Source: Micromonospora peucetia
GTDB taxonomy: Bacteria; Actinomycetota; Actinomycetes; Mycobacteriales; Micromonosporaceae
Direction: 5' to 3'
Assembly: GCF_900091625.1 (NCBI RefSeq)
Contig: NZ_FMIC01000002.1
Location: forward strand, 3,968,001 to 4,032,000
Length of the DNA stretch: 64,000 nucleotides
In this document: positions 4,799-50,793 of the stretch, in pieces
Position numbering within the stretch: position 1 is the stretch's first letter
Layout of the letters: each line of letters opens with the position of its first letter
The notes under the pieces: generated by a model
The model's database searches: none
Seen by the model: only the letters and a program-made list of their open reading frames with translations
Told to the model about the DNA's origin: nothing
Position numbers and translations under genes: made by a program

Positions 4799-5904
4799 TG
4801 GGTCCGCTGCGTTCGGTGGTGCTCGCGGGAGGTGGCACCGGGGGACACATCTACCCGTTGCTCGCCTTCGCCGACTGCCTGCGCCGACACGACCCCGGCG
4901 TCCGGATCACCTGCCTGGGCACACCGAGGGGCCTGGAGAACGAGTTGATCCCGCCGCAGGGCTACGACCTGCGTCAGATCCCGGCCTACCAGCTGCCCCG
5001 GTCGGTGAACATGAACCTGGTCAGGACGCCCGGCCGGATGTGGACCGCGGCCCGCGCCGCGGGCAAGGTCATCGACGAGGTGCGGGCCGACGTGGTGGTC
5101 GGCTTCGGCGGGTACGTCTCCGTGCCGGCCTACCTCGCCGCCTGGCGCCGCGAGCTGCCGATCGTGATCCACGAGGTGAACGTGCCGCCGGGGGTGGCCA
5201 ACCGGCTGGGGATGAGGTTCACCAAACACGTGGCGGTCGGCTTCCCGCACCAGCCCGTCCAGGCCGAGGCACTGCGCGACGCCCGGGTGGTCGGCGTGCC
5301 GCTGCGCCGGGGCATCGCCGGGCTGGACCGGGTCGCCATGCGCAACCGGGCGCGGGCCCACTTCGGGCTCCGTCCCGACCTGCCGGTGCTCTTCGTCGCC
5401 GGTGGCTCGCAGGGCGCCCGCTCGATCAACCTCGCCGTCGCCGGGGCGGCCAAGGAGCTGGCCCGCAACGGGGTGCAGGTGCTGCACGTGATCGGCGCCC
5501 GCAACGAGCCGGTGCCGGTCCCCACGGACCTGCCGGTCCCGTACGTGACGCTGCCGTACCTGTCCGAGATGGAGGCCGGCTACGCCGCGGCGGACCTGAT
5601 GCTCGGCCGGGGCGGGGCGATGACCTGCGCGGAGGTGGCGGCGATCGGACTGCCCACCATCTACGTGCCGTACCCGCACAGCAACCAGGAGCAGAAGCGC
5701 AACGCGCTGCCCGTGGTGGAGGCCGGCGGCGGGCTGCTCGTCGACGACGCCGAGCTGACCCCGGACTGGGTCGAGCGGACCGTCATCCCGCTGATCCGCG
5801 ACCCGCACCGGCTGCACACGATGGGTGCCGCCGCAGCCGGGTACGGGCGCCGCGACGGCGACGAGGCGCTGCTCAACTTCGTCTACGAGGCGGTGGCCCG
5901 GTGA
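4798..5904 (+). CDS. murG: UDP-GlcNAc:lipid I N-acetylglucosaminyltransferase MurG
   Basis: Peripheral membrane GT-B enzyme that converts lipid I to lipid II. The product is 368 aa. The glycine-rich loop GGGTGGHIYPLL (residues 11-22) is at the N-terminus, and the C-terminal UDP-GlcNAc site has GGSQGARSIN, GRGGAMTCAE and YPHSNQEQKRNA. An in-frame TTG at 4795 is only 2 nt from the AGGAGA ribosome site, so the ATG at 4798 (5 nt spacing) is preferred. The start overlaps the ftsW stop. The last bases, GTGAGC, begin a dispersed repeat and a possible mini-ORF. Confidence 0.96.
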   Translation: MGPLRSVVLAGGGTGGHIYPLLAFADCLRRHDPGVRITCLGTPRGLENELIPPQGYDLRQIPAYQLPRSVNMNLVRTPGRMWTAARAAGKVIDEVRADVVVGFGGYVSVPAYLAAWRRELPIVIHEVNVPPGVANRLGMRFTKHVAVGFPHQPVQAEALRDARVVGVPLRRGIAGLDRVAMRNRARAHFGLRPDLPVLFVAGGSQGARSINLAVAGAAKELARNGVQVLHVIGARNEPVPVPTDLPVPYVTLPYLSEMEAGYAAADLMLGRGGAMTCAEVAAIGLPTIYVPYPHSNQEQKRNALPVVEAGGGLLVDDAELTPDWVERTVIPLIRDPHRLHTMGAAAAGYGRRDGDEALLNFVYEAVAR

Positions 5905-5993
5905 GCGCGAGGAGTGAGCTTGCGAGCCCCGCAGTCGCGAACGACGGTGGCCCGGTGACCGGGCGCACCGCGACGGGAAGGTACTCGGCATGA
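5901..5993 (+). CDS. Bridging mini-ORF between murG and murC (30 codons)
   Basis: The GTG at 5901 overlaps the murG stop (GTGA). The frame stays open for 30 codons, beginning [14 protein letters not shown], and its TGA (5991-5993) overlaps the murC ATG (ATGA). No known domain. The first half is a dispersed 33-nt repeat also found at the hisC-hisB junction. It may pass terminating ribosomes from murG to murC. Whether it is translated is unknown. Confidence 0.35.
   Translation: MSARSELASPAVANDGGPVTGRTATGRYSA
5903..5935 (+). repeat. 33-nt dispersed repeat, copy 1
   Basis: The 33 bases starting GAGCGCGAGGAG and ending CCCCGCAGT are identical to 24268-24300, 18 kb away at the hisC-hisB junction. 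Both copies sit exactly on a gene end and run into the gap before the next start. Confidence 0.85.
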
Positions 5994-7543
5994 ACACCGC
6001 ACAGTTCACCCCGGCCGGCACGCTCACCGCCGAGGACCTCGGCACGATCCACCTGATCGGGGTCGGCGGGGTCGGCATGAGCGGGCTGGCCCGGCTCTTC
6101 CTCACCCGGGGCATCCGGGTCTCCGGCAGTGAGCTGCGGGAGTGGCCCTCCCTGGCCGGAATGCGCGCCCTCGGCGGCACCATCCACATGAGCCACGAGG
6201 CGTCCAACCTCGACGGCGTCGACACCGTCGTCTATTCCTCGGCGATCCCGCAGGACCATCTGGAGATGGTGGAGGCGCGCCGGCGGGGCCTGCGCGTGCT
6301 GCACCGCTCCGAGGCCCTGGCCGCCGCGATGACTGGCCGCCGGACGGTGGCGGTCGCCGGCACCCACGGCAAGACCACCACCACGTCGATGGTCACCATG
6401 GTGCTCCAGCAGGCCGGGCAGGATCCGTCCTTCGTGATCGGCGGGGAGATCTCGGAGGTGGGCTCGGGCGCCCACCACGGCACCGGCGAGTACTTCGTGG
6501 TCGAGGCGGACGAGAGCGACCGTTCCTTCCTGATCTACCGTCCGTACGTGTCGATCATCACCAACGTCGAGGCCGACCACCTGAACACCTATGGCGACCT
6601 CGCCACGCTGGAGGCGGCCTTCGCCGAGTTCGCCCGGCTCACCGACCCGGACGGATTCATCATCACCTGTGCCGACGACCCGGGCGGGCGACGGCTGGCC
6701 GAGACGCTGCGCGCGGAGGGGCGTCGGGTGCACACCTACGGCGAGGCGGCCGACGCCGACCTGCGGCTGACCGACATCGCCTCGTCGGCCCGGGGCGTGC
6801 GTTACCTGGCGGGCATCGACGGGCGGTCGCTCGGCGAGTTCCGGCTGCCGGTGCCGGGGCGGCACATGGGGCTCAACAGCGCCTCGGCCGTGCTGGCCGA
6901 GTACCTTCTGGGCCTGCCGCTGGAGGCGGCGGAGGGCGCGCTCGCGGCGTTCCCCGGCGTGCGGCGGCGCTTCGAGCGCAAGGGCGTCGCGGACGACGTG
7001 CTGGTCTACGACGAGTACGCCTACCACCCGACCTCGATGACGCTGGCTTTGCAGACGCTGCGCGAGGTGGCCGGGGACGGCCGACTGATCGTGGTCTTCC
7101 AGCCCTACCGGCTCTACCGCACCCGCGACCTTCAGGCGGAGATCGCCGAGGCACTGGCCATCGCCGACGAGCTGGTGCTGCTGGAGGTCTTCGGCCCGGG
7201 CGAACTGCGCGAGCCGGGGGAGGGTTCGGCGGCGCTGGTCGAGGCGGTGTCGCTGCCGGCGGAGCGGAAGGTCTTCGTGGACTCGTGGGAGGCCGCGCCG
7301 GTGGAGGTGGCCCGGCGGGCCCGCCCCGGCGACGTCGTGGTGACCATGGGCGCCCCGCCGATCTCGCTGATGGGCGACCAGTTGCTGGACGTGCTGTCGA
7401 CGCGTACCGCCGATCCGGCGACGCCGGCGGGCACGACGCCCGGCGGTGACGCGGGCGGTGCGACGACCATCGGCGGCACCGTCCCCGGCGTCGGCGGTGC
7501 GGGCGGCGCGGTCCCGGACGGCGCGGCGCCCGCGGCCGGATGA
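5990..7543 (+). CDS. murC: UDP-N-acetylmuramate--L-alanine ligase MurC
   Basis: Adds L-Ala to UDP-MurNAc, the first stem-peptide residue. The product is 517 aa. The N-terminal UDP site is HLIGVGGVGMSGLAR (about residues 17-31), the P-loop is GTHGKTTTTSM, and the central domain has VVEADESDRSF and NVEADHLN. FQPYRLYRTRDL and EYAYHPT mark the C-terminal domain. The last ~45 residues are a Gly/Ala/Pro-rich tail absent from most MurC proteins. The ATG overlaps the mini-ORF stop, and the gene's TGA overlaps the ftsQ start. Confidence 0.96.
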   Translation: MNTAQFTPAGTLTAEDLGTIHLIGVGGVGMSGLARLFLTRGIRVSGSELREWPSLAGMRALGGTIHMSHEASNLDGVDTVVYSSAIPQDHLEMVEARRRGLRVLHRSEALAAAMTGRRTVAVAGTHGKTTTTSMVTMVLQQAGQDPSFVIGGEISEVGSGAHHGTGEYFVVEADESDRSFLIYRPYVSIITNVEADHLNTYGDLATLEAAFAEFARLTDPDGFIITCADDPGGRRLAETLRAEGRRVHTYGEAADADLRLTDIASSARGVRYLAGIDGRSLGEFRLPVPGRHMGLNSASAVLAEYLLGLPLEAAEGALAAFPGVRRRFERKGVADDVLVYDEYAYHPTSMTLALQTLREVAGDGRLIVVFQPYRLYRTRDLQAEIAEALAIADELVLLEVFGPGELREPGEGSAALVEAVSLPAERKVFVDSWEAAPVEVARRARPGDVVVTMGAPPISLMGDQLLDVLSTRTADPATPAGTTPGGDAGGATTIGGTVPGVGGAGGAVPDGAAPAAG

Positions 7544-8355
7544 GTCCCGGTCCGGCGCGGGGGCGCACCACCGGCGCGGACGGCGGCGGCCGGCGCGGGC
7601 CGGTGCGCCGGTGGCAGCTGGTCCGGGCCGGCAGCGACGCCGTTCCGGCTTCGACCCGCCGGTTCATGGCCCGGGCCCGGCAGCGTCGGATGCGCGCGGC
7701 GCTGCCGTGGGCGGTCGCGGCGGGTGCGCTCGGCGTGGCCGGGCTGATCGCCTGGACCATGCTCGGCACCGGCCTGTTCGGGGTGCGTGAGGTCCGCGTC
7801 GAGGGCGCCGAACTGGTCACCGCGGTGCAGGTCCGCGACGCGGCTGCGGTGCCCGACGACGCCCCGCTGGCCCGGGTGGACCTGGCCGCCACCGCGCGCC
7901 GGGTCGGCGGGCTGCCGGCGGTCCAGCGGGCGGTGGTGACCCGGGACTGGCCGGACACGCTGGTGGTGCGGGTGACCGAGCGCACCGGCGTGGCGGCGGT
8001 GCCGCGCGGGGAGCAGTTCGTGGTGATCGACCGCGCGGGCGTGGTCTTCCGGACCGTGCCACGGCCCCCCGACGGCCTGCCGGTGGTCCGTCTCGCCGAG
8101 CCGGGACCGGGCGACGGGTCGACCCGGGCGGCGCTGGAGGTGCTCGGCGCGCTCACCCCGCCGCTGCGCGCCGAACTGGTGGACGTGACCGTCGAGGGGC
8201 TGGCCCGGATCACGCTGCGGCTGCGCGGCGGCCGGGTGGTGGTCTGGGGGGACGCGACCCGGGGCGCGGACAAGGCCCGGGTGGCCAGCGCCCTGCTCGG
8301 CCGCAAGGCCGACACCATCGACGTCAGTGCGCCGGATGTGGTGACCCTGCGGTGA
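7540..8355 (+). CDS. ftsQ: Cell division protein FtsQ (POTRA domain)
   Basis: Single-pass divisome scaffold that links FtsZ-ring proteins to the septal synthase complex. It is 271 aa: a basic ~60-residue cytoplasmic N-terminus, one membrane helix around residues 62-84 (LPWAVAAGALGVAGLIAW), then a POTRA domain starting FGVREVRVEGAELV and the FtsQ domain with DWPDTLVVRVTER. The start is an ATGA overlap with murC. A hairpin and a separate ftsZ promoter follow the stop. Confidence 0.93.
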   Translation: MSPGPARGRTTGADGGGRRGPVRRWQLVRAGSDAVPASTRRFMARARQRRMRAALPWAVAAGALGVAGLIAWTMLGTGLFGVREVRVEGAELVTAVQVRDAAAVPDDAPLARVDLAATARRVGGLPAVQRAVVTRDWPDTLVVRVTERTGVAAVPRGEQFVVIDRAGVVFRTVPRPPDGLPVVRLAEPGPGDGSTRAALEVLGALTPPLRAELVDVTVEGLARITLRLRGGRVVVWGDATRGADKARVASALLGRKADTIDVSAPDVVTLR

Positions 8356-8384
8356 CCGGGGGCTCGGCCCGTGACGTGACCCGC

Positions 8385-8413
8385 CCCGCTCCGGCGGCGA
8401 CACGCCGAGCGGG
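8385..8413 (+). terminator. Hairpin after ftsQ
   Basis: CCCGCT (8385-8390), one bulged C, then CGGCG pairs with CGCCG-AGCGGG (8403-8413) around a 6-nt loop, giving 11 bp. It begins 29 nt after the ftsQ stop and ahead of the ftsZ promoter, so it may separate the mur/ftsQ transcript from ftsZ. Confidence 0.55.
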
Positions 8414-8465
8414 TCCTTGGCTCATCGCGTGAGGGCGCTTACGTTGCCCCGAAGGGGATCAGTGG

Positions 8466-8494
8466 TTGACATAACTGTAAGCCTCTAGTAGAGG
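8466..8494 (+). promoter_or_regulatory. ftsZ promoter with CCTCTA-G-TAGAGG palindrome
   Basis: TTGACA at 8466-8471 is a perfect -35 box; with 17-bp spacing the -10 is TAGAGG (8489-8494). The -10 is the right arm of a palindrome, CCTCTA (8482-8487) / TAGAGG. A CCTC...GAGGGT-type dyad just upstream of ftsZ is, as I recall, common in actinobacteria, so a regulator site is plausible. The 5' leader would be about 100 nt. Confidence 0.6.
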
Positions 8495-8601
8495 GTGAGG
8501 GTTCTACCCTGATCCTCGCTGGTGACAGCTTTCGTCGGCTGCTGGTCTGGCCAGGCCTTACCCGGTCGGCCCATGCCAATCTCGAAGGGAAAGGACCGGA
8601 G

Positions 8602-9717
8602 ATGACACCTCCGCACAACTACCTGGCGGTCATCAAGGTCGTCGGCATCGGTGGCGGCGGCGTCAACGCCGTCAACCGGATGATCGAGGTTGGGCTCAAG
8701 GGCGTCGAGTTCATCGCGATCAACACCGACGCGCAGGCGCTGCTCATGAGCGACGCCGACGTGAAGCTCGACGTCGGCCGTGAGCTGACCCGTGGGCTCG
8801 GCGCCGGCGCCAACCCCGACGTCGGCAAGAACGCCGCCGAGGACCACCGCGACGAGATCGAGGAGGTGCTCAAGGGCGCCGACATGGTCTTCGTGACCTG
8901 CGGCGAGGGCGGCGGCACCGGCACCGGCGGGGCGCCCGTGGTGGCGAACATCGCCCGCAAGCTTGGCGCGCTGACCATCGGCGTGGTCACCCGGCCGTTC
9001 TCGTTCGAGGGCAAGCGCCGCCAGGTGCAGGCGGAATCCGGAATAGACGAACTGCGCAACCAGTGCGACACGCTGATCGTCATCCCCAACGACCGGCTGC
9101 TGGCGCTGGGCGACCGCAACATCAGCATGATGGACGCGTTCCGCACCGCCGACCAGGTGCTGCTCTCCGGTGTCCAGGGCATCACCGACCTGATCACCAC
9201 GCCGGGTCTGATCAACCTGGACTTCGCCGACGTCAAGAGCGTGATGAGCGGTGCGGGCAGCGCGCTCATGGGCATCGGCAGCGCGCGCGGCGAGAACCGT
9301 GCCGTCGAGGCGGCCGAGGCGGCCATCTCCAGCCCGCTGCTGGAGCAGAGCATGGACGGCGCGCGCGGCGTGCTGCTCTCCATCGCCGGCGGGTCGGACC
9401 TGGGCCTGTTCGAGATCAACGACGCGGCCCAGCTGGTCACCGACGCGGCCCACCCGGACGCCAACATCATCTTCGGCGCCGTCATCGACGACGCCCTCGG
9501 CGACGAGGTGCGGGTCACCGTCATCGCGGCGGGCTTCGACGGGGGCACGCCGGCGTACAAGGCTGCCGAGCAGCCCCGTAAGAGCAACCAGAACCAGCCG
9601 TCGCAGTCGAGCACCCCGGTCGCGCCGCCGGCCACCATGCCGGCCCCGCAGCAGTCGCCCCGCCGGGTCCTCTTCGACGACGTCGACGTGCCCGACTTCC
9701 TCAAGAACGGTTCCTGA
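8602..9717 (+). CDS. ftsZ: Cell division tubulin homologue FtsZ
   Basis: GTPase that polymerises into the Z-ring. It is 371 aa, typical for actinobacteria. It shows the N-terminal nucleotide fold ([15 protein letters not shown]), the tubulin signature [11 protein letters not shown] (about residues 109-119), the synergy-loop region [11 protein letters not shown], a Q/P-rich linker and a conserved C-terminal peptide [10 protein letters not shown] that binds SepF. AGGA (8592-8595) lies 6 nt before the ATG. It has its own promoter upstream. yggS follows after 9 nt; the pgeF/yfiH gene found here in Streptomyces is absent. Confidence 0.98.
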
Positions 9718-9726
9718 GCCGCGCCG

Positions 9727-10473
9727 ATGAACGACAGCCCAGCCACGGTGCGCCCGGACCGGCGCGCCGAGATCGCGGCCGGCCTGGCCGGCGTACGGTC
9801 CCGGGTCGCGGACGCCTGTGCCGCCGCGGGACGGGACGACTCCGAGGTCACCATGATCGCGGTGACCAAGACCTACCCGGCCGGGGACGTGGTGGCCCTG
9901 GCCGGGCTCGGCGTCGTCGACATGGGGGAGAACCGCGACCAGGAGGCGTCCGTCAAGGCGGCCGAGGTGGCCGCGGCCGGGGTGACTCCCCGGTGGCACT
10001 TCATCGGGCAGTTGCAGCGCAACAAGGCCCGGTCGGTGGTCCGCTACGCCGACGTCGTGCACTCGGTCGACAGTGTCCGGCTGGCCCGGGCGTTGGACGC
10101 GGCGTCGGCGGCGACGCGGGACCGGCCGCTGGAGGCGCTCATCCAGGTGAGCATCGACTCCGACGCGGCCCGGGGCGGTGCACTGCCGGGCTCGGCCGAC
10201 CCGGGTGCCGGGCTCGACGCGGTGGCCGAGGCGGTGGCCGGTGCGGAGGCCCTGCGGCTGACCGGCCTGATGGCGGTGGCGCCGTTGGGCTGGGAGCCGG
10301 AGCGGGCGTTCGCCCGGCTGGCCGAGGTGGTCGCCGCGTTCCGCGCGGTCCATCCGGGAGCCACCGCGCTCTCCGCCGGGATGAGCGGCGACCTGGAAAT
10401 CGCGATCCGGTACGGCGCGACACATGTCCGCGTCGGCAGCGCGTTGCTCGGAATGCGTCCCACGCTGCGGTAG
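9727..10473 (+). CDS. yggS: YggS-family pyridoxal phosphate homeostasis protein
   Basis: A 248-aa single-domain PLP-binding TIM-barrel protein (YggS/YlmE/PROSC family) involved in vitamin B6 homeostasis. The PLP lysine lies in MIAVTKTYPAGDV (about residue 49); other motifs are GENRDQE, WHFIGQLQRNKAR and LSAGMSGDLEIAI. It is usually found between ftsZ and sepF in Gram-positives, as here. The ATG lies 9 nt after ftsZ, so it is probably cotranscribed. A promoter-like AT-rich stretch follows the stop. Confidence 0.92.
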   Translation: MNDSPATVRPDRRAEIAAGLAGVRSRVADACAAAGRDDSEVTMIAVTKTYPAGDVVALAGLGVVDMGENRDQEASVKAAEVAAAGVTPRWHFIGQLQRNKARSVVRYADVVHSVDSVRLARALDAASAATRDRPLEALIQVSIDSDAARGGALPGSADPGAGLDAVAEAVAGAEALRLTGLMAVAPLGWEPERAFARLAEVVAAFRAVHPGATALSAGMSGDLEIAIRYGATHVRVGSALLGMRPTLR

Positions 10474-13256: not shown

Positions 13257-13556
13257 ATGAACGACACGCTGACCGTCGCGGTCCGGGTGAAGCCCGGCTC
13301 GGCGCGGGCCCGCGTCGGCGGCTGCTTCGACGGGCCACACGGGCCCGCCCTCGTGATCGCGGTGAACGCCCCGGCCGTGGACGGGCGGGCCACCGAGGCG
13401 GCCCGGCGGGCGCTGGCCGGCGCGCTGGGCGTACGGCCGGCCGTGGTCTCGCTGCGGGCCGGCGCGGCCAGCCGCGACAAGCTCTTCCTGGTCGAGGGCC
13501 CCGCCTCGGAGTTGACCGAGGCGCTGCGCCGGCTGCGCGACGGGGCCGCCGGGTGA
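13257..13556 (+). CDS. DUF167 (YggU) family protein
   Basis: A 99-aa single-domain protein. VAVRVKPGSARARVGG at the start and SRDKLFLVEG near the end match the DUF167/YggU family, a small alpha/beta fold of unknown function. The usual DGKANxAL-like segment appears as DGRATEAARRAL. The stop is part of GTGA, which starts a 9-codon bridge to the antiporter gene. Confidence 0.88.
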   Translation: MNDTLTVAVRVKPGSARARVGGCFDGPHGPALVIAVNAPAVDGRATEAARRALAGALGVRPAVVSLRAGAASRDKLFLVEGPASELTEALRRLRDGAAG

Positions 13557-13582
13557 CGGACGCCGAGGCCGGAAGGCGGTGA
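13553..13582 (+). CDS. Bridging mini-ORF (9 codons), DUF167 to antiporter
   Basis: The GTG overlaps the DUF167 stop. Nine codons (MTDAEAGRR) lead to a TGA that overlaps the antiporter GTG start (GTGA). It could be chance or a ribosome hand-over. It is not one of the dispersed repeat copies. Confidence 0.2.
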   Translation: MTDAEAGRR

Positions 13583-18481: not shown

Positions 18482-18517
18482 GTCAGGCGGGCATCGATGG
18501 CGCTGGGAGGGCGAGCC

Positions 18518-20104
18518 GTGGAGGGCAGCGAGACCGGCTGGGGGCGGCCGGCCGAACCAGCACCGCGGTGGCGGGCGCTGCTCGACCGGGCCCGGCACGG
18601 CGGCCGCACGGCTGAGCAGGCCGAAGCCGACCGGCACGCCGATCCGCCGCCGCTCCCGCCGGAGCCGCTGCCCCGCCGTTCGTCGGGCAACGGCTACGCC
18701 GGGCGGGTGCCGGCCATCGGGCGGGCCCCCGATCCGCCGTACGTGCCGGAGCCCGGCCCGCCGTCCTACGGCCAGGATTTCGGCCACCCGGTCGACGCGG
18801 GCTACCGCGCTGAGGCCAGCTACCGGGTCGAGCCGGCCTACCGGGTGGACCCGAACGAGCCCGCCTACCGGGTGGACCCGGTCGAGCCGTCCTACCGTTC
18901 GGAACCGGTCGAGCCGTCCTACCGTTCGGAGCCGGTTGAGCCGTCCTACCGTTCGGACCCGGTTGAGCCGTCCTATCGGGCGGAGCCGGGGTATCCGGCC
19001 GAGGCGGCGTACCGGGTGCCGGCCCAGCCTCCGCCGCCCCGCGTCGAGTCCGAGCCGCGCCACGGCCCGGGGCCGGTCGAGTCGCGTTACGCGCTGCTGG
19101 ACAACGGCTTCCGGTCCGGTCCGCCCCCGGTCGAGTCCCGGTACGCGGTGCTCGACAACGGCTACCGCTCCCAGCGCGCCCACCAGGCGCCGCCCGCACC
19201 GCCCCCACCGGCCGCGCAGCCTCCACCGGCCGCGCCGGTGATTCCCGAGCGGGGCTACCCGGCCCGCGTCGAGTGGCGCCCCCGCGACACGGAGAGCGAG
19301 TTGGAGCGCGCCGCCGGAGTGCTCCGCCGCGACCTGGGCACCCCCCGGGTGCTCGCGTTCGCCAACCCGAAGGGTGGCGTGCACAAGACCACCGCCACGG
19401 TGCTGGCCGCGGCGACCGTCGGCAGCGTACGCGGGCGTGGCGTGCTGGCCTGGGACGACAACGAACTGCGCGGCACGCTCGGGCTGCGCGCCGGCAGCGC
19501 CCGGCACGCCCGGACGATCCGGCACCTGGTCAGCGATCTCGCGCACGTCGAGATCAAGGAGGGCCCCGAGCTGCTGGAGCACCTGGACGACTACCTGCGG
19601 CACGCCTCCGACGGCTCGTACGACGTGCTGGCCGGCGAGGAGAGCCCGCGGTTCGCCCAGCGGCTCGACCAGTTCACCGTCCGGCGGGTGCTGGACCTGC
19701 TGCGGCGTACCCACGACGTGGTCTGCGTGGACACCGGCAACAACGTGGAGAGTGCCAACTGGCGCACCGTCATGCAGGCGGCCGACCAGCTCGTGGTGAC
19801 CACCGTGCCGCGCGAGGACGCCGCGTTCAGCGCCGACTGGATGCTGGACCTGCTGCACGAGGTGGGCATGGGGGAGTTGGCCGACAACGCGATCACCCTG
19901 ATCTCCTGCCCCACGCCCGGCCGCTCGTCGTTGCAGGACGACCTGGAGCGGCACTTCGCCACCCGCACCCGGGCTGTCGCCGTGGTGCCGTACGACCCGG
20001 CGCTGGAGACCGGCTCCTCGATCGAGTACCCCCAGCTCCAGCAGGAGACCCGGCAGGCGTGGCTGAAGGCCGCCGCGGTGATGCTGGAGCCGTTCGCCCG
20101 GTGA
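18518..20104 (+). CDS. ParA/MinD-like ATPase with long repetitive N-terminus
   Basis: I place the start at GTG 18518 (GGGAGG 7 nt upstream) rather than ATG 18497. The product is 528 aa. Residues 1-265 are disordered and rich in Pro, Tyr, Arg and Glu, with four 9-residue repeats of the type VEPSYRSEP. Residues 275-528 are a ParA/MinD-type P-loop domain. The deviant Walker A is KGGVHKTT (285-292): KGG is kept but the Gly before the second Lys is His289. VVCVDTGNN matches the switch/Walker B region. Similar ATPases with Pro-rich N-termini accompany actinobacterial type VII secretion and cell-pole systems, but no ESX genes are nearby, so the role is open. Confidence 0.85.
   Translation: MEGSETGWGRPAEPAPRWRALLDRARHGGRTAEQAEADRHADPPPLPPEPLPRRSSGNGYAGRVPAIGRAPDPPYVPEPGPPSYGQDFGHPVDAGYRAEASYRVEPAYRVDPNEPAYRVDPVEPSYRSEPVEPSYRSEPVEPSYRSDPVEPSYRAEPGYPAEAAYRVPAQPPPPRVESEPRHGPGPVESRYALLDNGFRSGPPPVESRYAVLDNGYRSQRAHQAPPAPPPPAAQPPPAAPVIPERGYPARVEWRPRDTESELERAAGVLRRDLGTPRVLAFANPKGGVHKTTATVLAAATVGSVRGRGVLAWDDNELRGTLGLRAGSARHARTIRHLVSDLAHVEIKEGPELLEHLDDYLRHASDGSYDVLAGEESPRFAQRLDQFTVRRVLDLLRRTHDVVCVDTGNNVESANWRTVMQAADQLVVTTVPREDAAFSADWMLDLLHEVGMGELADNAITLISCPTPGRSSLQDDLERHFATRTRAVAVVPYDPALETGSSIEYPQLQQETRQAWLKAAAVMLEPFAR
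18881..18988 (+). repeat. Four tandem 27-bp repeats inside the ParA-like gene
   Basis: Units start at 18881, 18908, 18935 and 18962. Each encodes VEPSYRSEP or a close variant (last unit SYRAEP). Units 1-3 differ at only a few bases, so copy number may vary between strains. Degenerate YRVDP units lie just upstream (from about 18820). Confidence 0.9.
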
Positions 20105-20160
20105 GCGGGTGTGCCGCCACCGGCCGCCCACGCCGCCCCCGGGCCTGAGAGGATCACCGG

Positions 20161-21090
20161 GTGAGTGCGGACACCCCCGAACCCGACCGGCCCGGCCACC
20201 GGCCCGACGAGCCGGGGGCACCGGCCGCCTGGGCGGAACCCGACCCGCCGGCCCCTGGCGCTCCCGCCGACCCGTACGCCGCCCGCGAGCCCGCCCCGCC
20301 GTACGACGCCCCGCCGTACGACACCGGGCCGTACGACGCCGCTACCGGTGCCCCGTCGTACGGCGGCGCGGGAGAGCACTTCCCCGGCGGGACCGGCCTG
20401 GAGTACGCCGCCGGCTATCCGCTCGCGCAGCCGGTGGAGCCGGACCTGCCGCGCGGGCGGGCGGTGCGACTCGCCCTGCTGGCGGTGCTCGCCGCCACAG
20501 TGCTCGGGGTGCCGCTCGGGCTGCTCTGGGCCGCGCTCGCGCCGGACACACCGGTGGTCAAGGTCGCCGACGGGGCCATCTACGCCGAGCCGCAGCCGGA
20601 GCAGCCGATCGCCGCCGACGGCTGGTTCAGCCTGCTGGGGCTGGGCTTCGGGGTGCTCGTCGCGCTCGCGCTGTGGTTCCTGCTGCGTCGGGTACGGGGG
20701 CCGGTCGGCCTGTTCGCCGCCGTGTTCGGCACGTTCGGCGCGGCGCTGGTCGCCTGGCAGGTCGGCCGGCGGATGGGGCTGGCCGGCTACGAGCGGCTGC
20801 TGGAGAGCGCCCCCGTCGGGCAGGCCTTGAGCAAACCGGCCGACCTGCGGGCCGGCGGGATCGACTGGGTGTTCGCCGTGCTGCCGCTGCCGCACGGCAA
20901 CTTGCTGCTGCCCGCGTTCGGCGCGGCCGTGACGTACACCCTGCTGGCCGGTTGGTCCCGCTGGCCGTCGCTGCGCCCGGAGCGCGAGCCGGGCCCGGTC
21001 GAGTTCAGTTGGGGGTCGGCGGGGACGCCAGCTCCGCCAGCGGCACCGGAACCGCCCGCACCTGGCGCAGCAGCGCCGCCTCACGGTTGA
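20161..21090 (+). CDS. DUF2567-like integral membrane protein
   Basis: A 309-aa protein with a ~95-residue Pro/Asp/Tyr-rich cytoplasmic start (repeats of PPYDAPPYDT), then four membrane helices (about 101-122, 157-176, 184-203, 237-260) and a Pro/Ala tail. The layout and the motif WVFAVLPLPHGNLLLPAFG fit the actinobacterial DUF2567 group, of unknown function. GAGGAT (20149-20154) lies 6 nt before the GTG, so the mRNA may be leaderless. Its last 86 nt overlap the convergent Lon-domain gene. Confidence 0.75.
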   Translation: MSADTPEPDRPGHRPDEPGAPAAWAEPDPPAPGAPADPYAAREPAPPYDAPPYDTGPYDAATGAPSYGGAGEHFPGGTGLEYAAGYPLAQPVEPDLPRGRAVRLALLAVLAATVLGVPLGLLWAALAPDTPVVKVADGAIYAEPQPEQPIAADGWFSLLGLGFGVLVALALWFLLRRVRGPVGLFAAVFGTFGAALVAWQVGRRMGLAGYERLLESAPVGQALSKPADLRAGGIDWVFAVLPLPHGNLLLPAFGAAVTYTLLAGWSRWPSLRPEREPGPVEFSWGSAGTPAPPAAPEPPAPGAAAPPHG

Positions 21091-21812: not shown

Positions 21813-24300
<2,488 letters not shown>

Positions 24301-24318
24301 GCGACCGAGAGGTGAGCA

Positions 24319-24930
24319 ATGAGTAGGACCGCCCGTGTGGAGCGGATCACCAAGGAGACGAAGGTCCTCGTCGAGATCGACCTCGACGGCACCGGCCGGG
24401 CCGAGATCAGCACCGGGGTCGGCTTCTACGACCACATGCTGCACCAGATCGCCCGGCACGGCGGCTTCGACCTGACCGTACGCACCGTGGGTGACCTGGA
24501 GATCGACGCCCACCACACGATGGAGGACACGGCGCTCGCCCTGGGCGCCGCCTTCGACCAGGCGCTGGGGGACAAGGCCGGCATCCGGCGGTACGGCTCG
24601 GCCACCGTCCCGATGGACGAGGTCCTGGTCCGGGCCGCGGTCGACCTCTCCGGTCGCCCCTACGTGGTGCACGACGAGCCGGCGCTGGCGCCGTACATCG
24701 GGCCGGTCTATCCGACCAGCATGACCCGGCACATCTGGGAGTCCTTCGGCCAGGCGGCCCGGATCACCCTGCACGTGGACGTGCTGCGGGCGGCCCGCCC
24801 CGGCGGCCACCCCGACGCCCACCACGTGGTGGAGGCACAGTTCAAGGCGGTCTCCCGCGCGCTGCGCGAGGCCACCGCGATCGACCCGCGCGCGGCGGGC
24901 GCGATCCCCAGCACGAAGGGAGCGCTATAG
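24319..24930 (+). CDS. hisB: Imidazoleglycerol-phosphate dehydratase HisB
   Basis: Mn-dependent dehydratase, sixth step of histidine synthesis. The 203-aa monofunctional form is normal outside enterics. Metal-binding His/Glu motifs are GFYDHMLHQIARHGGFDL, DAHHTMEDTALALG and HHVVEAQFKA. The ATG follows a GAGAGG site 36 nt after hisC. The stop TAG is directly followed by the next ATG. Confidence 0.97.
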   Translation: MSRTARVERITKETKVLVEIDLDGTGRAEISTGVGFYDHMLHQIARHGGFDLTVRTVGDLEIDAHHTMEDTALALGAAFDQALGDKAGIRRYGSATVPMDEVLVRAAVDLSGRPYVVHDEPALAPYIGPVYPTSMTRHIWESFGQAARITLHVDVLRAARPGGHPDAHHVVEAQFKAVSRALREATAIDPRAAGAIPSTKGAL

Positions 24931-25104
24931 ATGGGCGGGGTGCTGCCGTCGTTGCTGCTGATCCTGGCCGGCGTGCTGGTCGGCGGGGCGTGGTCGCTGC
25001 ACAAGCAGGGCGCACCACGCGGCGCGGTGGTCGTCACCGCGCTGCTCGCCGTCCTGGCCACGGTCGCCGCCGTGCTCTGGCTGCTGCCGGGGGAGGGCGC
25101 GTGA
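24931..25104 (+). CDS. Small membrane protein in the his operon (57 aa)
   Basis: The ATG immediately follows the hisB stop. The 57 residues form two hydrophobic helices (LPSLLLILAGVLVGGAW and AVVVTALLAVLATVAAVLWLL) joined by a short basic loop HKQGAPRGA, so it is probably a hairpin membrane protein. Small ORFs occur here in other actinomycete his clusters. Function unknown. Its stop is part of GTGA, opening a 22-codon bridge to hisH. Confidence 0.7.
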   Translation: MGGVLPSLLLILAGVLVGGAWSLHKQGAPRGAVVVTALLAVLATVAAVLWLLPGEGA

Positions 25105-25169
25105 GTGGGCGGCTCGTGGGCCGTCGCGCGCGACGGTGTCGCGGCGCCGACGGGAGGGTGACGGCATGA
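25101..25169 (+). CDS. Bridging mini-ORF before hisH (22 codons)
   Basis: The GTG overlaps the upstream stop, and the TGA (25167-25169) overlaps the hisH ATG. The peptide starts MSGRLVGRRARR and is Arg-rich. It has the same geometry as 5901 and 23132 but no clear sequence match. Confidence 0.25.
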   Translation: MSGRLVGRRARRCRGADGRVTA

Positions 25170-25798
25170 GCCGGGTGGTGGTCCTCGACTACGGGTCGGG
25201 CAACCTGCGTTCGGCCGAGCGGGCCCTGGTCCGGGTCGGCGCGGACGTCACGGTGACCGACGACCTGACCGCCGCCGCCGAGGCGGACGGGCTGGTGGTG
25301 CCGGGCGTGGGCGCCTTCGCCGCCTGCATGGCCGGGATCGAGGCGCTCGGCGCCGGCCCGGTGATCGCCGAGCGCGTCGCCGCCGGCCGTCCCGTGCTGG
25401 GCATCTGCGTGGGCATGCAGGTGCTCTTCGAGCACGGCGACGAGCACGGGGTGGTGACCAAGGGCCTCGGGCTGCTCCCCGGCGGGGTGACCAGGCTGGC
25501 CGCCGCCCGGCTGCCGCACATGGGCTGGAACACGGTCGCGGCGCCGGCGGGGTCGGTGCTCTTCGCCGGCCTGCCCGCCGACAGCCGGTTCTACTTCGTG
25601 CACTCGTACGGGGTGGGGGATCCGGTCGCGCTGGCGGACGCCGGCGCCACGGTCACCACCGCCCACCACGGGACGGACTTCGTGGCGGCCGTGGAGCGGG
25701 GTCCGCTGCGCGCCGCGCAGTTCCACCCGGAGAAGTCCGCCGACACCGGTGCCGCGCTGCTGCGCAACTGGCTCGCCACGCTCTCCACCGGTGACTGA
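25166..25798 (+). CDS. hisH: Imidazole glycerol phosphate synthase glutaminase subunit HisH
   Basis: Class I glutamine amidotransferase that passes ammonia to HisF. It is 210 aa from the ATG at 25166 ([16 protein letters not shown]). The triad is visible: Cys in [11 protein letters not shown] (about residue 82) and His/Glu in [11 protein letters not shown]. hisF is not adjacent but 3.5 kb downstream, beyond the ohr insert. The end overlaps another small open frame leading to the next gene. Confidence 0.96.
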
Positions 25799-25853
25799 GC
25801 GCCGGCCCGGCCCGCGCCGGCCCGCCTCCGGCCGTCGGCGGGGCACGCCGTGA
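25791..25853 (+). CDS. Bridging mini-ORF after hisH (20 codons)
   Basis: The GTG at 25791 lies just before the hisH stop. The frame runs 20 Arg/Pro-rich codons from [10 protein letters not shown] to a TGA overlapping the next gene's GTG (GTGA). Coding is unproven. Confidence 0.2.
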
Positions 25854-45061: not shown

Positions 45062-45078
45062 CTGGAAGCCTGGACGGT

Positions 45079-45602: not shown

Positions 45603-46907
45603 GTGGGTCACGCAGCGTCACCGGACGAGAGGTTCCTCGGCGAATGGGCCGCCCGGTTGCGGGCCGGCGCCGAGCAGCCCGTGGTCGGTATCATGCTGCG
45701 CGGCAGCCATGCCCGGCGGGCCGCCACCGCGCACAGCGACGTCGACGTCGACGTGCTGCTCGCCGGCGCCCCGTACGCCGCCCGCCAGGCCTACCTGGCC
45801 GAGCATGCGGGCCGGCTGACCCACGTCTCGGTGGCCGCCCGCGACGTTCGCTCCTGGCTGACCCGCCTCGGCGAGCCCGCCGACTGGGCGTTCGGGCTGC
45901 CGGTGACGGCGCCGGCCCGGCTGCTGTGGGCGGATCCGCACTGGCGGCCCCGGATCGACCTGCCGGTGCTCTGCCAGCCCGCCGGCGAACCGCAGCTGGA
46001 GGAGTTGATCGCGACGCTCGGTAAGGTGGCCGGCGCGCGGGACGCCGACGACCACCTCGGCGTCCGGCTGGCCGCCGCCGACCTGGGGCGGCTCTGCCCG
46101 TCCGTGCTGCGGCTGGCCAACCCCACGGTCCGGGTGACGTCCCGGCGGGCGGCCTTCACCGCCGCCCTCGACCTGCCGGTGGCGCCCCCGAACTACCGGG
46201 AGGACCTGCTGCTCTGCCTCGGGCTGCGGCCCGGCTCCGTCGGCCAGCTCTGCGCCGCCGCGACCCGCCTGGTCGCCGGCGTCCTGCCACTGATCCGCCC
46301 GTACGCCGCCGAGGTCGCGCGGACCTCCGGCGCGGACCTGGCCGACGCCCTGGTCGACGGCCGGCTGGACCGCTATGTCGACCAGCTGACCCGGCCCGCC
46401 CACCGGGCGCCGCGGCCCCGGCGGGAGCCCGCGCCCGTGCCCGCCCCGCGTGCGGGACAATGGGTCACTGTGCCCGTACCTGACGCGCCCGTGACCGGCG
46501 CCCATCCCAGTCCGCAGGAGCCCGCGGCCGACGGCGCGGCCCGTGCGTCCCGGCTCGACCCGGCCATCGCCGCCCGGCTGCGCCGTACCCCCGACGGCCT
46601 GGTGGCCGCCGTGGTCCGCCAGCACGACTCCGGCGAGGTGCTGATGGTCGCCTGGATGGACGACGAGGCGTTGCACCGCACCCTGACCACCGGCCGGGCC
46701 ACCTACTGGTCGCGCAGCCGCCGGGAGTACTGGGTCAAGGGCGCCACCTCCGGGCACCACCAGTACGTCCGCGCGGTCGCGCTGGACTGCGACGGCGACG
46801 CGCTGCTGGTCGACGTCGAACAGGTCGGCGCGGCCTGCCACACGGGGCACCGCACCTGCTTCTTCACCGAGCTGCCGGTCGGCGGGGACGGGGCGGACGG
46901 CCGGTGA
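45603..46907 (+). CDS. hisI: Nucleotidyltransferase-like protein fused to phosphoribosyl-AMP cyclohydrolase HisI
   Basis: One uninterrupted 434-aa frame. Residues 1-265 resemble a stand-alone nucleotidyltransferase: [25 protein letters not shown] has the GS...SDxD metal motif, followed by a helical domain. A Pro-rich linker (about 266-310) leads to a complete HisI domain: [44 protein letters not shown] and the zinc/Mg motif CHTGHRTC. HisI opens the ring of phosphoribosyl-AMP. Normal HisI is 110-145 aa, so this is a fusion, or two products from one frame, since an internal GTG (46470) has a -10-like box. The stop overlaps trpE. Confidence 0.85.
46456..46461 (+). promoter_or_regulatory. Internal -10-like box before the HisI part
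   Basis: GACAAT ends 8 nt before GTG 46470, which is in frame and would give a 145-aa HisI starting [10 protein letters not shown], just ahead of the domain. A leaderless internal transcript for hisI-trpE is possible. Confidence 0.45.
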
Positions 46908-48502
46908 GCGCGACCTCGCCCGGCCCCGCCGCGAACGGCGGGAGGCCCCGCACCGACGGCACGGTCAGTCCGGATCTGGCCACCTTCACCGAACTGGCCG
47001 CCCGCTGGCGGGTCGTCCCGGTCACCCGGCGGCTGCTCGCCGACGCGGAGACCCCGGTCGGCGTCTACCGCAAGCTCGCCGGCGGCCCGGGGACGTTCCT
47101 GCTGGAGTCCGCCGAGCAGGGCGTCGGCTCGGCCGGCCTGGCCTGGTCGCGGTATTCGTTCATCGGCGTACGCAGCAGCGCCACGCTGACCGAGCGGGAC
47201 GGCGCCGCGGTGTGGACGGGTCAGCCGCCGGCCGGCCTGCCCACCTCCGGGGACCCGGTCCAGGTGCTGCGCGAGACCGTCGAGGCGCTCGCCGGCCCGG
47301 CGTGGGACGCGGCAGGCGGCATGCCGCCGCTGACCGGGGGCATGGTCGGCTACCTGGGCTACGACCTGATCCGGCGGTTCGAGCGGCTGCCCGAGCTGAC
47401 CGAGGACGACCTGGGTGTGCCCGAGCTGGGCATGATGCTCGCCGCCGACCTGGTGGTGCTGGACCACTACGAGGGTTCGGCGATCCTCGTCGCCAACGCG
47501 ATCCTGCCGCCGCTGACCGAACCGGACTCCGACGCCCTGGTCACGGCCGCGTACCACCACGCGGTCGGCCGGCTCGACGCGATGACCACGGCGCTGTCCC
47601 GGCCGATCCCGCCGATGGTGTCGACCGTCGGGCGTCCCCCGGCGGGCGAGGTGCGCAGCCGCACGCCCGAGGGTGGCTATCCCAAGGCCGTCGAGGCGGC
47701 CAAGGAGGCGATCCGGGCCGGCGAGTGCTTCCAGATCGTGCTGGCCCAGCGGTTCGAACGGGAGACCCACGCCGACCCGCTGGACGTCTACCGCGTGCTG
47801 CGTACGACGAATCCCAGCCCGTACATGTACCTGCTGCGCTTCGACGGCTTCGACATCGTCGGGTCCTCGCCGGAGGCGCACCTGAAGGTGACCACCGACG
47901 CCGACGGGCGGCGGCGGGCGCTGCTGCACCCGATCGCCGGCACCCGCCCGCGCGGCGGCACCCCCGAGGCCGACGCCCGGCTCGCCGCGGAACTGCTCGC
48001 CGACCCCAAGGAGCGGGCCGAGCACGTGATGCTGGTCGACCTGGGCCGCAACGACCTGGGCCGGGTCTGCCAGCCGGGCACCGTGGAGGTGCCGGAGTTC
48101 GCCACCATCGAGCGCTACAGCCACGTCATGCACATCGTCTCGACCGTCGTCGGCACGCTGCGTGAGGACCGCACGGCCTTCGACGCGCTGGCCGCGACCT
48201 TCCCCGCCGGCACCCTCTCCGGAGCGCCCAAGGTGCGGGCCATGGAGATCATCGAGGAGCTGGAACCGGTCCGGCGCGGCCTCTACGGCGGCACCGTGGG
48301 CTACTTCGGCTTCGGCGGCGATCTGGACATGGCGATTGCCATCCGCACCGCGCTGATCCGCGACGGCAGGGCGTACGTGCAGGCCGGGGCGGGGGTGGTG
48401 GCCGACTCGGACCCGGCCGCCGAGGACGAGGAGACCCGGAACAAGGCCGCCGCCGTGCTCGCCGCCATCGCCGCCGCCGAGACCCTCCGGCCCGCCCGAT
48501 GA
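46904..48502 (+). CDS. trpE: Anthranilate synthase component I TrpE
   Basis: Converts chorismate to anthranilate, using ammonia from a TrpG not seen in this window. It is 532 aa. LLES at 66-69 is the tryptophan feedback site. Catalytic motifs are [42 protein letters not shown] and [16 protein letters not shown]. It starts in a GTGA overlap with the HisI fusion, coupling the his and trp pathways, and overlaps the next gene by 4 nt. Confidence 0.96.
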
Positions 48503-49128
48503 CCGCCGCCGAGCCGCGCGGTCAGGAACCGGGGACCACCCCGGCGACCGACGCGGGCCAGGGTGCGCGGCCCAATGCGGGTCGCCGCGAACTGACGTAC
48601 GCCGTGCTGCTCTGCGTGGCCGGCGCGGGCCTGGCGCTGTGGGCGTCGACCCGCACCTGGGCGGTCGAGCTGACCGCCCGGCCGACCCCGCTGCCGCCGG
48701 TACACGACGCCCGCACCGGCGCCGGCCTGCTGCCCTGGCTGCCGGCGCTGGCGCTGGTCGGGCTGGCCGGCGGCGGTGCCGTGCTCGCCACCCGGGGTCG
48801 GGCGCGGCGGCTGCTGGGCGGGCTGCTGTGCGGGCTCGGCGCGGCGGTGGCCGCCGGCGGCGGCTACGGCCTGGTCGCGACGTTCGACGGTGAGGTCAGC
48901 CGGCACTGGCCGGCGCTCTGCCTGCTCGGCGGGGTGCTCGCCACGGCGGGCGGGCTGCTGACGGCGTTGCGGGGCCGACGGTGGCCGGCGATGGGCGCCC
49001 GCTACGAGCGGCGGGCCGCGGGCGGCGAGGCGCCGGCCGCGCGGGACGAGGACGGCCGGGTCACCGGCCGGCACACCACCCAGGCATGGGACGCGCTGGA
49101 CCGGGGCGAGGACCCGACGGTCAGCTGA
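48499..49128 (+). CDS. Trp-biosynthesis-associated membrane protein (TIGR02234 type)
   Basis: A 209-aa protein with four membrane helices (about residues 31-50, 77-97, 104-125, 137-158) and polar ends. Members of this family sit after trpE in most actinomycetes (TIGR02234); their function is unknown. [20 protein letters not shown], following the first helix, is the conserved patch. Its start overlaps trpE (ATGA), and its last 8 nt overlap a convergent small gene. Confidence 0.88.
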
Positions 49129-49378
49129 CCGGCTGGCGCTGGCGGGCGGCGGCCCGGGCCGCCGCCAGCTCCGCCACCAGGCGGTCGAGGTCGGCCCGCT
49201 GCTCGGCCCGGGCCCGATCGGCGCAGACCGCCTCCCAGGCGTTGCCGCGCGCGGTGCGCATCCGGGCCTCGCCCACCACGGCGCGTTCCAGGGTGTGCAC
49301 CACGCCGACGGCGAGCGACGCGACGGTACGCGAGATGGTCGTCAGTCCGATGGTCGGGTTGGGCTCGACAGTGCTCAT
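49121..49378 (-). CDS. Small helical protein, unknown
   Basis: An 85-aa product from the ATG at 49378. It has an N-terminal stretch TIGLTTISRTVASLAVGVVHTLERAVVGEA that may be amphipathic, and an Ala/Arg/Glu-rich coiled-coil-like tail (DLDRLVAELAAARAAARQRQ). No family recognised. It lies antisense within the trp cluster and overlaps the convergent membrane-protein gene by 8 nt. Coding is likely but not certain. Confidence 0.55.
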   Translation of the reverse strand: MSTVEPNPTIGLTTISRTVASLAVGVVHTLERAVVGEARMRTARGNAWEAVCADRARAEQRADLDRLVAELAAARAAARQRQPVS

Positions 49379-49781
49379 GATCACCCCGCACGGAGATCGT
49401 TGTTGATGGTGGGGCAGGCGCGTCATCGAGTCTGCCCGAGGACGATGCTGGCTGGCGGACGTTTCGCCGTGGTGACCGACACGTCAACTCTGCTTCCGGG
49501 GCCGCGACCAGGGAAAGGGTCGTTCGGCCTTGAGGTAGGTCACAGCGGGGGCGGGCGTCGGCAGAGGTGCCGGGCCGGGCGGCCGGCCGTGCCACGGGAT
49601 AGGATCACGTCGATGACCTGGGTGGCGGAGACGGGGTGGCCGGATGGCGGGCGTCGATGGGCGCGGTCGCCCAGCGTGACGTCCCGTTCACCGGAGGTCG
49701 GCCATTATGCCCCAGCCCATCTCGTGAGGCACGCCATACCCCCGGCGCCTGGCGCCAGGTGGCGCCCCCTAGCATCGGCCC
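49379..49781. other. 403-bp gap upstream of trpC
   Basis: There is no established gene. It holds the promoter side of the small minus-strand gene, a possible leaderless Trp-containing ORF (49613), a cluster of GGCGCC palindromes (49744-49766) and the trpC -10 box. Base use from 49430 to 49600 shows no convincing coding frame. Confidence 0.6.
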
Positions 49782-49819
49782 ATGACACCCGGAGAGGGGA
49801 GTCCGTTGGTGACTGCTGA
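49613..49819 (+). CDS. Possible leaderless small ORF with Trp codons upstream of trpC
   Basis: TAGGAT (49600-49605) ends 7 nt before an ATG that opens 68 codons, starting [20 protein letters not shown]. Trp codons occur at positions 3, 9 and 16, a high rate. The frame runs past the GGCGCC hairpins and ends 38 nt inside trpC. It could be a regulatory leader peptide for trpC-trpB-trpA, or chance. No family match. Confidence 0.3.
49744..49775 (+). promoter_or_regulatory. trpC promoter: GGCGCC palindromes and -10 TAGCAT
   Basis: GGCGCC occurs at 49744, 49751 and 49761; CCTGGCGCCAGG (49748-49759) is a perfect 12-bp palindrome. TAGCAT (49770-49775) ends 6 nt before the trpC ATG, so the mRNA would be leaderless. 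The palindromes sit in the -35 region and could be an operator or an attenuator stem. Confidence 0.55.
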
Positions 49820-50672
49820 GCATGCGCACGCGGAGGGGGACGAGGCCGGTCCGGCGGCGTCCGTAGGCGTACTCGACGAGATCCTGGCCGGCGTACGTGA
49901 GGACGTCGCCCGGCGACAGGAGCAGGTTCCGCTGGAGCGGATCCGCGAACTGGCGGCTGCCGCGCCGCCGCCGCTGGACGCGTACGCGGCCCTGCGCAAG
50001 CCGGGCGTCGCGGTGATCGCCGAGGTGAAGCGCTCGTCGCCGTCCAAGGGGCGGCTGGCCGAGATCGCCGACCCGGCCGACCTGGCCGGCGACTACGCGG
50101 CCGGCGGGGCGCGGGCGATCAGCGTGCTCACCGAGGGGCGCTGGTTCGGCGGCTCGCTCGACGACCTGGCCGCCGTCCGCGCCGCCGTCAACATCCCGGT
50201 GCTGCGTAAGGACTTCGTGGTCTCCAGCTACCAGGTGCACGAGGCCCGCGCGCACGGTGCCGACCTGGTGCTGCTGATCGTCGCCGCCCTGGAGCAGAAC
50301 GCCCTCGTCGGCCTGCTGGAGCGCATCGAGTCGCTGGGCATGACCGCGCTGGTCGAGGTCCACGACGAGGAGGAGGCCGACCGTGCCCTGGAGGCCGGCG
50401 CCCAGGTGATCGGGGTCAACGCCCGCAACCTACGTACCCTTGAGGTCGACCGTTCGGTGTTCGAGCGGATCGCGCCCGGCCTGCCCAGCAGCGTCGTCAA
50501 GATCGCCGAGTCGGGGGTGCGCGGCCCGCACGACCTGATCCGGTACGCCTCGGCGGGCGCCGACGCGGTCCTGGTCGGCGAGGGCCTGGTCACCCAGAAG
50601 AGCCCCCGCGAGGCGGTGGCCGAGCTGGTCAACGCCGGCAACCACCCGGCCACGCCCCGCCCGGTGCGCTGA
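49782..50672 (+). CDS. trpC: Indole-3-glycerol phosphate synthase TrpC
   Basis: TIM-barrel enzyme that closes the indole ring from CdRP. It is 296 aa from the ATG behind TAGCAT. The first ~27 residues are an Ala/Glu-rich extension; homologues usually begin near [15 protein letters not shown]. Motifs are [15 protein letters not shown] (catalytic Lys), [22 protein letters not shown] (second Lys), [13 protein letters not shown] and IAESGVRG. Not fused to TrpF, in keeping with PriA taking that role. Confidence 0.96.
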
Positions 50673-50709
50673 TCCCGCGCCGGTTCGTCAGCACCGAGAG
50701 GATGTCTGC

Positions 50710-50793
50710 ATGAGCGAGCGCAGCGAGCGAATCATCGGGCTCAGTGCGGTGGTGCCTCATGGCGGCACGGAGCGAAGCGGAGTGCGGGCATGA
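50710..50793 (+). CDS. Repeat-derived mini-ORF between trpC and trpB (27 codons)
   Basis: The ATG opens 27 codons, beginning [10 protein letters not shown] and ending TERSGVRA, and the TGA overlaps the trpB ATG (ATGA). The DNA (GAGCGAGCGCAGCGAGCGAA, then a GGCTCAGT stretch) is the fullest copy here of a repeat also seen, diverged, at 23132. The place matches that of a small trp-linked ORF (trpM/trpX) in Streptomyces, but the sequence looks like a repeat. It may couple translation into trpB. Confidence 0.4.

Follow-up and report, generated by a model that had tools for sequence, protein, structure and literature searches.

MIRU-like repeats and bridging mini-ORFs at overlapping stop and start codons in Micromonospora

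Several neighbouring genes in a 64,000-nt stretch of the Micromonospora peucetia genome (GCF_900091625.1, NZ_FMIC01000002.1, positions 3,968,001-4,032,000 of the forward strand; hereafter the window) are separated by short gaps that are each spanned by a small open reading frame (mini-ORF), the first codon of which overlaps the upstream stop codon and the stop codon of which overlaps the following start. These bridges are probably, for the most part, insertions resembling the mycobacterial interspersed repetitive units (MIRUs), which would relay coupled translation between the flanking genes by way of their mini-ORFs. A preliminary description of the window had interpreted the bridges as a general operon-coupling device. 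The frame rule behind that proposal does recur across the genus, and is compatible with terminating ribosomes being carried over gaps through serial reinitiation. Many of the bridges, however, are interspersed repeats inserted in sense orientation at 4-nt stop/start overlaps, and for this reason mobile DNA that leaves a pre-existing coupling intact seems a better description of them than a device evolved for coupling.

Two repeat families at bridged junctions

All five bridges of the preliminary description were recovered on the forward strand at its positions, in frame and free of inner stops. The murG-murC bridge (5901-5993, 30 codons from GTG to TGA) begins with a copy of a first family of interspersed repeats, which provides its first 44 nt (5901-5944), and the hisD-hisC bridge (23132-23197, 21 codons, GTG to TGA) contains a copy of a second family at 23133-23191. 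The others link a DUF167 gene to a Na/H exchanger gene (13553-13582, 9 codons, GTG to TGA), a small ORF to hisH (25101-25169, 22 codons, GTG to TGA), and trpB to trpA (52025-52036); the last is present and in frame, but with 3 codons across a 4-nt gap it is weak and carries little weight. A further forward-strand mini-ORF of 27 codons, with a family-2 repeat, ends on the ATGA start of trpB (50710-50793); its end is also the end of the span given in the preliminary description, yet it goes unmentioned in the text of that description.

As delimited by eye, the family-1 unit consists of GTGAGCGCGAGGAGTGAGCTTGCGAGCCCCGCAGTCGCGAACGAAAGGNNGGCNCN followed by NTGA and measures 56 bp, with longer subtypes also in existence, and its copies encode nearly constant peptides. 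Of 61 Micromonospora genomes, 60 contain the family-1 core pattern, and the reversed pattern gave no match. A 25-nt core occurs in 24 copies in the M. peucetia genome and was detected in 2 of 296 genomes of a phylum-wide sample, both of them Micromonospora, while a stricter family-1 pattern matched 31 of 200 genomes in a sample of the family (12 of 44 genera), weak matches included. Family 2, of about 60-80 bp, starts with NTGAGCGAGCGNAGCGAGCGAAYCAT and ends near GAGCGAAGCGAGG. It has 8 strict matches in the M. peucetia genome, is present in 13 of 296 genomes (8 of 114 genera) of a class-wide sample, and gave no match in 25 genomes of the same order outside the family. The peptides of family 2, read by eye, share the pattern (V/M)SER....SAVVP..GT.RSEV.A.

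The near-constant peptides of family 1 and the pattern shared by family 2 could be taken to mean that the mini-ORFs encode functional micropeptides conserved under peptide selection. We regard this as highly improbable: mean entropy at codon positions 1, 2 and 3 of 16 distinct 56-bp units is 0.17, 0.31 and 0.25, respectively, the DUF167 bridge conserves its length and not its sequence, and unlike-looking inserts bridge one and the same junction. With no excess variation at third codon positions, peptide selection was rejected. It is likewise very unlikely that the repeats act as RNA elements, such as hairpins, attenuators or processing sites, with an incidental ORF. Three folded family-2 copies were somewhat more stable than shuffled sequences (z = -1.3, -2.1 and -0.8), but two family-1 copies folded worse than shuffles (z = 1.2 and 1.4), no Rfam match was obtained in five sources, and there would be little reason for an incidental ORF to stay in frame when inserts differ in length and copies occur in tandem.

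Both families show the same orientation with respect to genes. Across four genomic regions, all 19 family-1 profile matches (13 places) and all 8 family-2 profile matches (8 places, of which four are orthologous) are sense-oriented and flanked by co-directional genes, and none of the 27 (21 places) lies inside a gene or between divergent or convergent genes; as a baseline, 893 of 1389 adjacent gene pairs are co-directional. This distribution bears on a selection-only scenario in which repeats insert anywhere and just those copies that preserve frame at coupled junctions persist. Such a scenario is possible, if on the unlikely side: insertions that break coupling in the his, mur and trp operons should be purged, and out-of-frame copies are known at hisC-hisB. 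Against it stand the 27 of 27 sense-oriented matches, the profiles having been seeded from such junctions, and the trpB copy at 50710-50793, which sits at the ATGA start codon although no upstream stop overlaps there.

When loci carrying the repeats were collected, 80 were fetched for family 1, of which 61 were retained after removal of 5 duplicates, 9 unclear cases and 5 lacking the core, and 30 for family 2, of which 27 were retained after removal of 2 unclear and 1 unoriented. Bridges are present in 47 of the 61 family-1 loci, as compared to 39 of 122 frame-broken controls (42 of 61 versus 35 of 122 if only steps with a spacing of -4, i.e. a 4-nt overlap, are admitted), and in 20 of the 27 family-2 loci versus 6 of 54 controls. 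Family 1 also forms tandem arrays, in which units lie 54-62 bp apart and number from 1 to 6 across loci. Arrays of 56- or 59-bp units mostly encode chained, separate ORFs of 19-20 codons. Three arrays of 60-bp units instead encode a fused single ORF (40 or 61 codons) whose stop still lies on the start of the following gene, and other arrays (L243, L250, L278) show no bridge. In L278, a possible copy-number typing locus, six family-1-like units repeat in tandem every 60 bp, and the TAG stop is followed by no bridge path.

A transposase of the Y1/RAYT type (REP-associated tyrosine transposase, REP standing for repetitive extragenic palindromic) was examined as a candidate mover and rejected, Y1_Tnp being found in just 18 of the 61 genomes as opposed to 60 for family 1. 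The M. peucetia genome itself has one Y1_Tnp (PF01797) transposase match, at L339 (G000:C2:4445998-4446351).

Filled and empty sites in related genomes

The hisD-hisC junction was compared in a 30-genome set with one locus per Micromonospora genome, that of M. peucetia included. The two genes overlap at -4 in 23 cases (one of them through a -4 start over an unclear aligned start) and are separated by an insert in 6, with gaps of 58, 55, 31, 76, 64 and 67 nt, all of length 1 mod 3. Among 80 named loci, the genes overlap at -4 in 69, 10 have a gap and one has some other small spacing; all nine true inserts, of 22, 31, 52, 55, 67 or 76 nt, are bridged. The tenth gap (L071) corresponds to a broken hisD frame, and one such row also occurs in the 30-genome set; in both L033 and L071 hisD is interrupted by a stop about 530 nt upstream of the hisC start, due either to an assembly error or to a pseudogene. 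In a HisC tree with 79 rows, 8 changes are needed to account for the 9 filled rows; well-supported branches force at least 5 of these changes, and the filled rows cluster no more strongly than shuffled labels. The cleanest pair is provided by L070, with GTGA at the junction, and L063, with GTGA-insert-GTGA between near-identical flanks.

The murG-murC junction behaves similarly. In 30 Micromonospora loci, with that of M. peucetia among them, the two genes overlap at -4 in 13 and are separated by a gap in 17, of which 16 are bridged, and the number of units varies from 0 to 4 across genomes, with up to four 20-codon mini-ORFs chained in series by 4-nt overlaps. Between DUF167 and the antiporter, all 18 homologous gaps are bridged (among 110 loci, 91 offered no junction that could be used and one had a small spacing); 16 of the gaps measure 22 nt despite diverged sequence, and of the odd ones, that of 85 nt stays in frame, while a second overlap of stop and start occurs in that of 45 nt. 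For the small ORF and hisH, the 80 named loci show a spacing of -4 in 35, of -1 in 12 and another small spacing in 4, with no result in 15, and all 14 gaps longer than 3 nt are bridged. Downstream of hisH, the window contains the variant noted previously (25791-25853, forward strand), an open frame of 20 codons that ends at -4 on the next gene and the GTG of which lies inside hisH, 5 nt ahead of its stop, i.e. at -8 spacing. The same junction is bridged in three congeners, with gaps of 19, 7 and 175 nt, the last holding three tandem units.

At hisC-hisB, where the stop GTGA lies at 24279-24282 and the start ATGA at 24319, a forward-strand mini-ORF of 15 codons (24279-24326) starts at -4 and ends at -8, and 6 of 7 fills are bridged in the 80-locus set. 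A decayed family-1 copy (24268-24313) here also spans the last hisC codons. Since the repeat has a changed GTGA at its left end both in the window and in genome G044 (G044 region 200220-200275), hisC reads into the repeat and stops at its internal TGA. In both genomes, the repeat DNA at these positions thus forms a C-terminal extension of hisC.

The trp junctions also differ between genomes. The insertion at 50710-50793 ahead of trpB is missing from three congeners (gaps of 35, 38 and 38 nt), and trpB and trpA are separated by 4 nt in M. peucetia (G000) and G019 and overlap at -4 in G032 and G044. The single junction reported as failing does fail: its forward-strand frame, 20101-20148, closes 12 nt short of the next start at 20161, and in two of three congeners the stop at this junction is CTGA and the gap measures 47 nt, the third giving no match.

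Family scans of the window proteins support the assignments of murG, murC, DUF167, the Na/H exchanger, TrpC, TrpB and TrpA, and identify hisD as histidinol dehydrogenase, hisC as a class I/II aminotransferase, hisB as imidazoleglycerol-phosphate dehydratase and hisH as a glutamine amidotransferase. Neither the 57-aa small ORF nor the 107-aa ORF following hisH matched in these scans. Other repeats in the window include tandem repeats with a 27-nt period at 18822-19010, inside a reading frame (18497-20104) that has a weak, below-cutoff ParA match beyond them, and GC-rich direct repeats at 52980-53087 in the long gap 3' of trpA. A 72-nt spacer upstream of a c-type cytochrome gene (CXXCH motif seen by eye; L013:18236-18309) is near-identical in four Micromonospora genomes and out of the bridge frame; a promoter or some other control element may lie in it.

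Frame bias in short gaps

The preliminary description counted five of six junctions in frame, where one in three would be expected by chance. The five are real; the hisC-hisB junction, ending at -8, had been overlooked as a seventh, so that the window features 5 exact bridges in 7 junctions, or 6 in 7 if the -8 spacing is counted. Frames were then counted in 464 kb around the window and in 400-kb syntenic regions of three congeners, 1.66 Mb in total, built from 20-kb stretches and hence a sample rather than a whole genome. For gaps of 10-150 nt preceding an NTGA start, the bridge frame was defined as relative frame 1, and 47 starts were moved to open -4, -1 or -8 positions before counting, 39 of them to -4.

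In the four genomes, gaps following GTGA or ATGA stops fall into frames 0, 1 and 2 in 9, 31 and 4 cases, so that the excess over one third proposed in the preliminary description holds (31/44), as compared to 17, 28 and 22 (28/67 in bridge frame) after CTGA or TTGA control stops. Frame 2 was drained because starts had been reassigned beforehand; frames 1 and 0 alone compare as 31 to 9. One-sided binomial tests against 1/3 gave p = 1.7e-4 for GTGA (23/36) and p = 1.5e-4 for ATGA (8/8). Without the NTGA-start condition, 47 of 85 gaps are in bridge frame, and prior to start reassignment, 36 of 88 following GTGA stops, a proportion diluted by miscalled starts. The bias is confined to gaps of up to 80 nt. 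In the his regions of named Micromonospora, the frames number 2, 69 and 3 (69/74 in bridge frame), versus 23, 24 and 18 (24/65) for CTGA/TTGA, and in Streptosporangiales 4, 11 and 2, versus 4, 4 and 1.

Distinct events were defined as combinations of junction and length, restricted to junctions that overlap at -4 or -1 in at least one genome. Of 42 such events (19 junctions), 36 are bridged by a path of mini-ORFs overlapping at starts and stops, as compared to 4 of 21 for CTGA/TTGA and 2 of 7 for TAA/TAG controls, and to 15 of 84 when 1-2 nt were removed from the spacers in silico. Comparison with shuffled gaps, which the preliminary description had also proposed, gave a mean of 27.5 and a maximum of 31 of 42 in 200 dinucleotide shuffles that kept spacer length; as equal-length shuffles still average 27.5, the signal lies mostly in spacer length. 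Chance alone, with few stop codons at 74% GC and one frame in three resembling a bridge, almost certainly does not explain these figures. Open frames do come easily at such base composition, as the length-preserving shuffles illustrate, the sample of the preliminary description was tiny, and gaps of 81-150 nt show no bias. However, the contrast between 31/44 and 69/74 (his regions) on the one hand and 28/67 and 24/65 after control stops on the other, together with 9 of 9 bridged hisD-hisC insertions, speaks against chance, and so do the empty sites.

A number of observations weigh against MIRU-like insertion as the origin of the bridges, or reduce the force of the evidence for it. No transposase was found linked to the repeats, and bridges are missing from 14 of the 61 family-1 and 7 of the 27 family-2 loci. 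The orientation count is not fully independent, because the seeds of the profiles were bridged junctions, some of them located in the regions scanned. Gene calls came from a simple home-made codon-usage caller and are approximate; many rows are orthologous, so that shared ancestry overstates their independence, and the 30-genome and 80-locus sets share some hisD-hisC inserts. Among gaps of 81-150 nt, 5 of 19 are in bridge frame (GTGA stops, any start). The low level of the stop-class controls is partly built in, as no -4 start is available with CTG, TAA or TAG. In other Micromonosporaceae, frames of 0, 4 and 0 are accompanied by a skewed CTGA/TTGA control (2, 11 and 2), and for this reason the frame counts taken alone are weak outside Micromonospora. 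Some empty hisD-hisC sites may represent losses, since L059, L063 and L064 share the right end of the insert and close relatives are empty. At hisC-hisB, only 3 of 8 fills in the 30-genome set are in exact frame. Finally, 43 of 61 bridged distinct events have no recognised repeat, and the proposed insertion origin is therefore not extended to them.

Spacers lacking a recognised repeat nevertheless favour the bridge frame (55/104, versus 105/349 after CTGA/TTGA stops), and 43 of these 104 are actually bridged, compared to 18 of 20 with a repeat. They may be decayed copies, belong to other families, or have been shaped by the same constraint; given the 55 of 104, a more general frame constraint beyond the repeats is possible.

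A relay model and its relation to known elements

We propose that short, apparently non-autonomous repeats insert in sense at NTGA, where a stop codon overlaps the next start, although insertion at a bare NTGA start would also be allowed, as at trpB. Insertion would leave NTGA at each end of the unit, and an intact unit of length 2 mod 3 would thereby create a mini-ORF with NTG over the upstream stop and TGA over the downstream start; towards its 3' end, the unit often also includes a Shine-Dalgarno-like motif, GAAAGG or GAGG. A ribosome terminating on the upstream gene could then restart on the mini-ORF, stop some 9-30 codons further on and restart on the next gene, and through this relay the coupling of the neighbouring genes would survive the insertion. 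Tandem copies would pass ribosomes through several mini-ORFs, or fuse into one ORF if the unit is of length 0 mod 3. Serial termination and reinitiation of this kind are suggested by the sequences themselves: the stop-to-start spacing at each step is -4, or sometimes -1 or -8, and Shine-Dalgarno-like motifs accompany 101 of 159 bridged starts and 191 of 357 -4 starts, versus 286 of 613 starts that follow unbridged gaps and 127 of 1129 positions picked at random.

The design is that of the MIRUs, as far as they are described in the sources consulted. In the account of PMC12548453, which credits Supply et al. 1997, MIRUs are apparently mobile, insert at start codons and contain an ORF that is coupled at -4 spacing. 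For one mycobacterial genome, PMC2734929 gives 41 places with repeats of 40-100 bp, 12 of which vary in copy number, and it also mentions an intergenic region that measures 279-358 bp in some species and 1-54 bp in others; a class I MIRU of 77 nt appears in PMC4128351, a length that is also 2 mod 3, as in intact Micromonospora units. The Micromonospora repeats match MIRUs in their size of roughly 40-100 bp, their many loci, their sense orientation between co-directional genes (with the seeds taken from such junctions), their tandem copies of varying number, and their insertion at NTGA with an ORF overlapping both neighbours, as seen in 47 of 61 and 20 of 27 loci and at empty homologous sites. 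Unlike MIRUs, they were seen in Micromonospora and other actinobacteria rather than in mycobacteria, and they form two other sequence families, likened to MIRUs through the published design and not by alignment. We call them MIRU-like rather than MIRU, since the design is shared but the host group differs. The spacings -4, -1 and -8 at which the mini-ORFs start and stop are also those enriched among overlapping prokaryotic gene pairs (PMC12548453); here, in contrast, one or more mini-ORFs are interposed, and the relay would span gaps of about 10-230 nt.

The units are likewise short, interspersed and intergenic in the manner of the REP elements and bacterial interspersed mosaic elements (BIMEs). 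Those elements are associated with RAYT (Y1) transposases; family 1, by contrast, lacks a strong hairpin and has an ORF with fixed ends. In the open-access literature on Micromonospora, Micromonosporaceae and Salinispora, no such repeats are described among the matches listed.

Relative to MIRUs, the new elements consist of other sequences in other bacteria, in an architecture that resembles theirs. The comparison points to MIRUs being a single instance of a broader strategy among actinobacteria, in which mobile DNA would be hidden inside translational coupling. It is tempting to speculate further that many actinobacterial lineages own MIRU-like families, forming a class of mobile elements at 4-nt overlaps with targeting tied to NTGA and to the sense strand, and arrays that act as multi-step relays tuning expression; as a whole this extension is rather doubtful. 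If it held, the number of units, or their length of 0 or 2 mod 3, would tune the expression ratio of neighbouring genes. Natural junctions, empty or filled with one to several serial mini-ORFs, offer ready-made constructs for measuring serial reinitiation. For Micromonospora, the repeats supply candidate copy-number typing loci, and they account for odd short gaps and C-terminal extensions in genome annotations, such as the last codons of hisC in the window.

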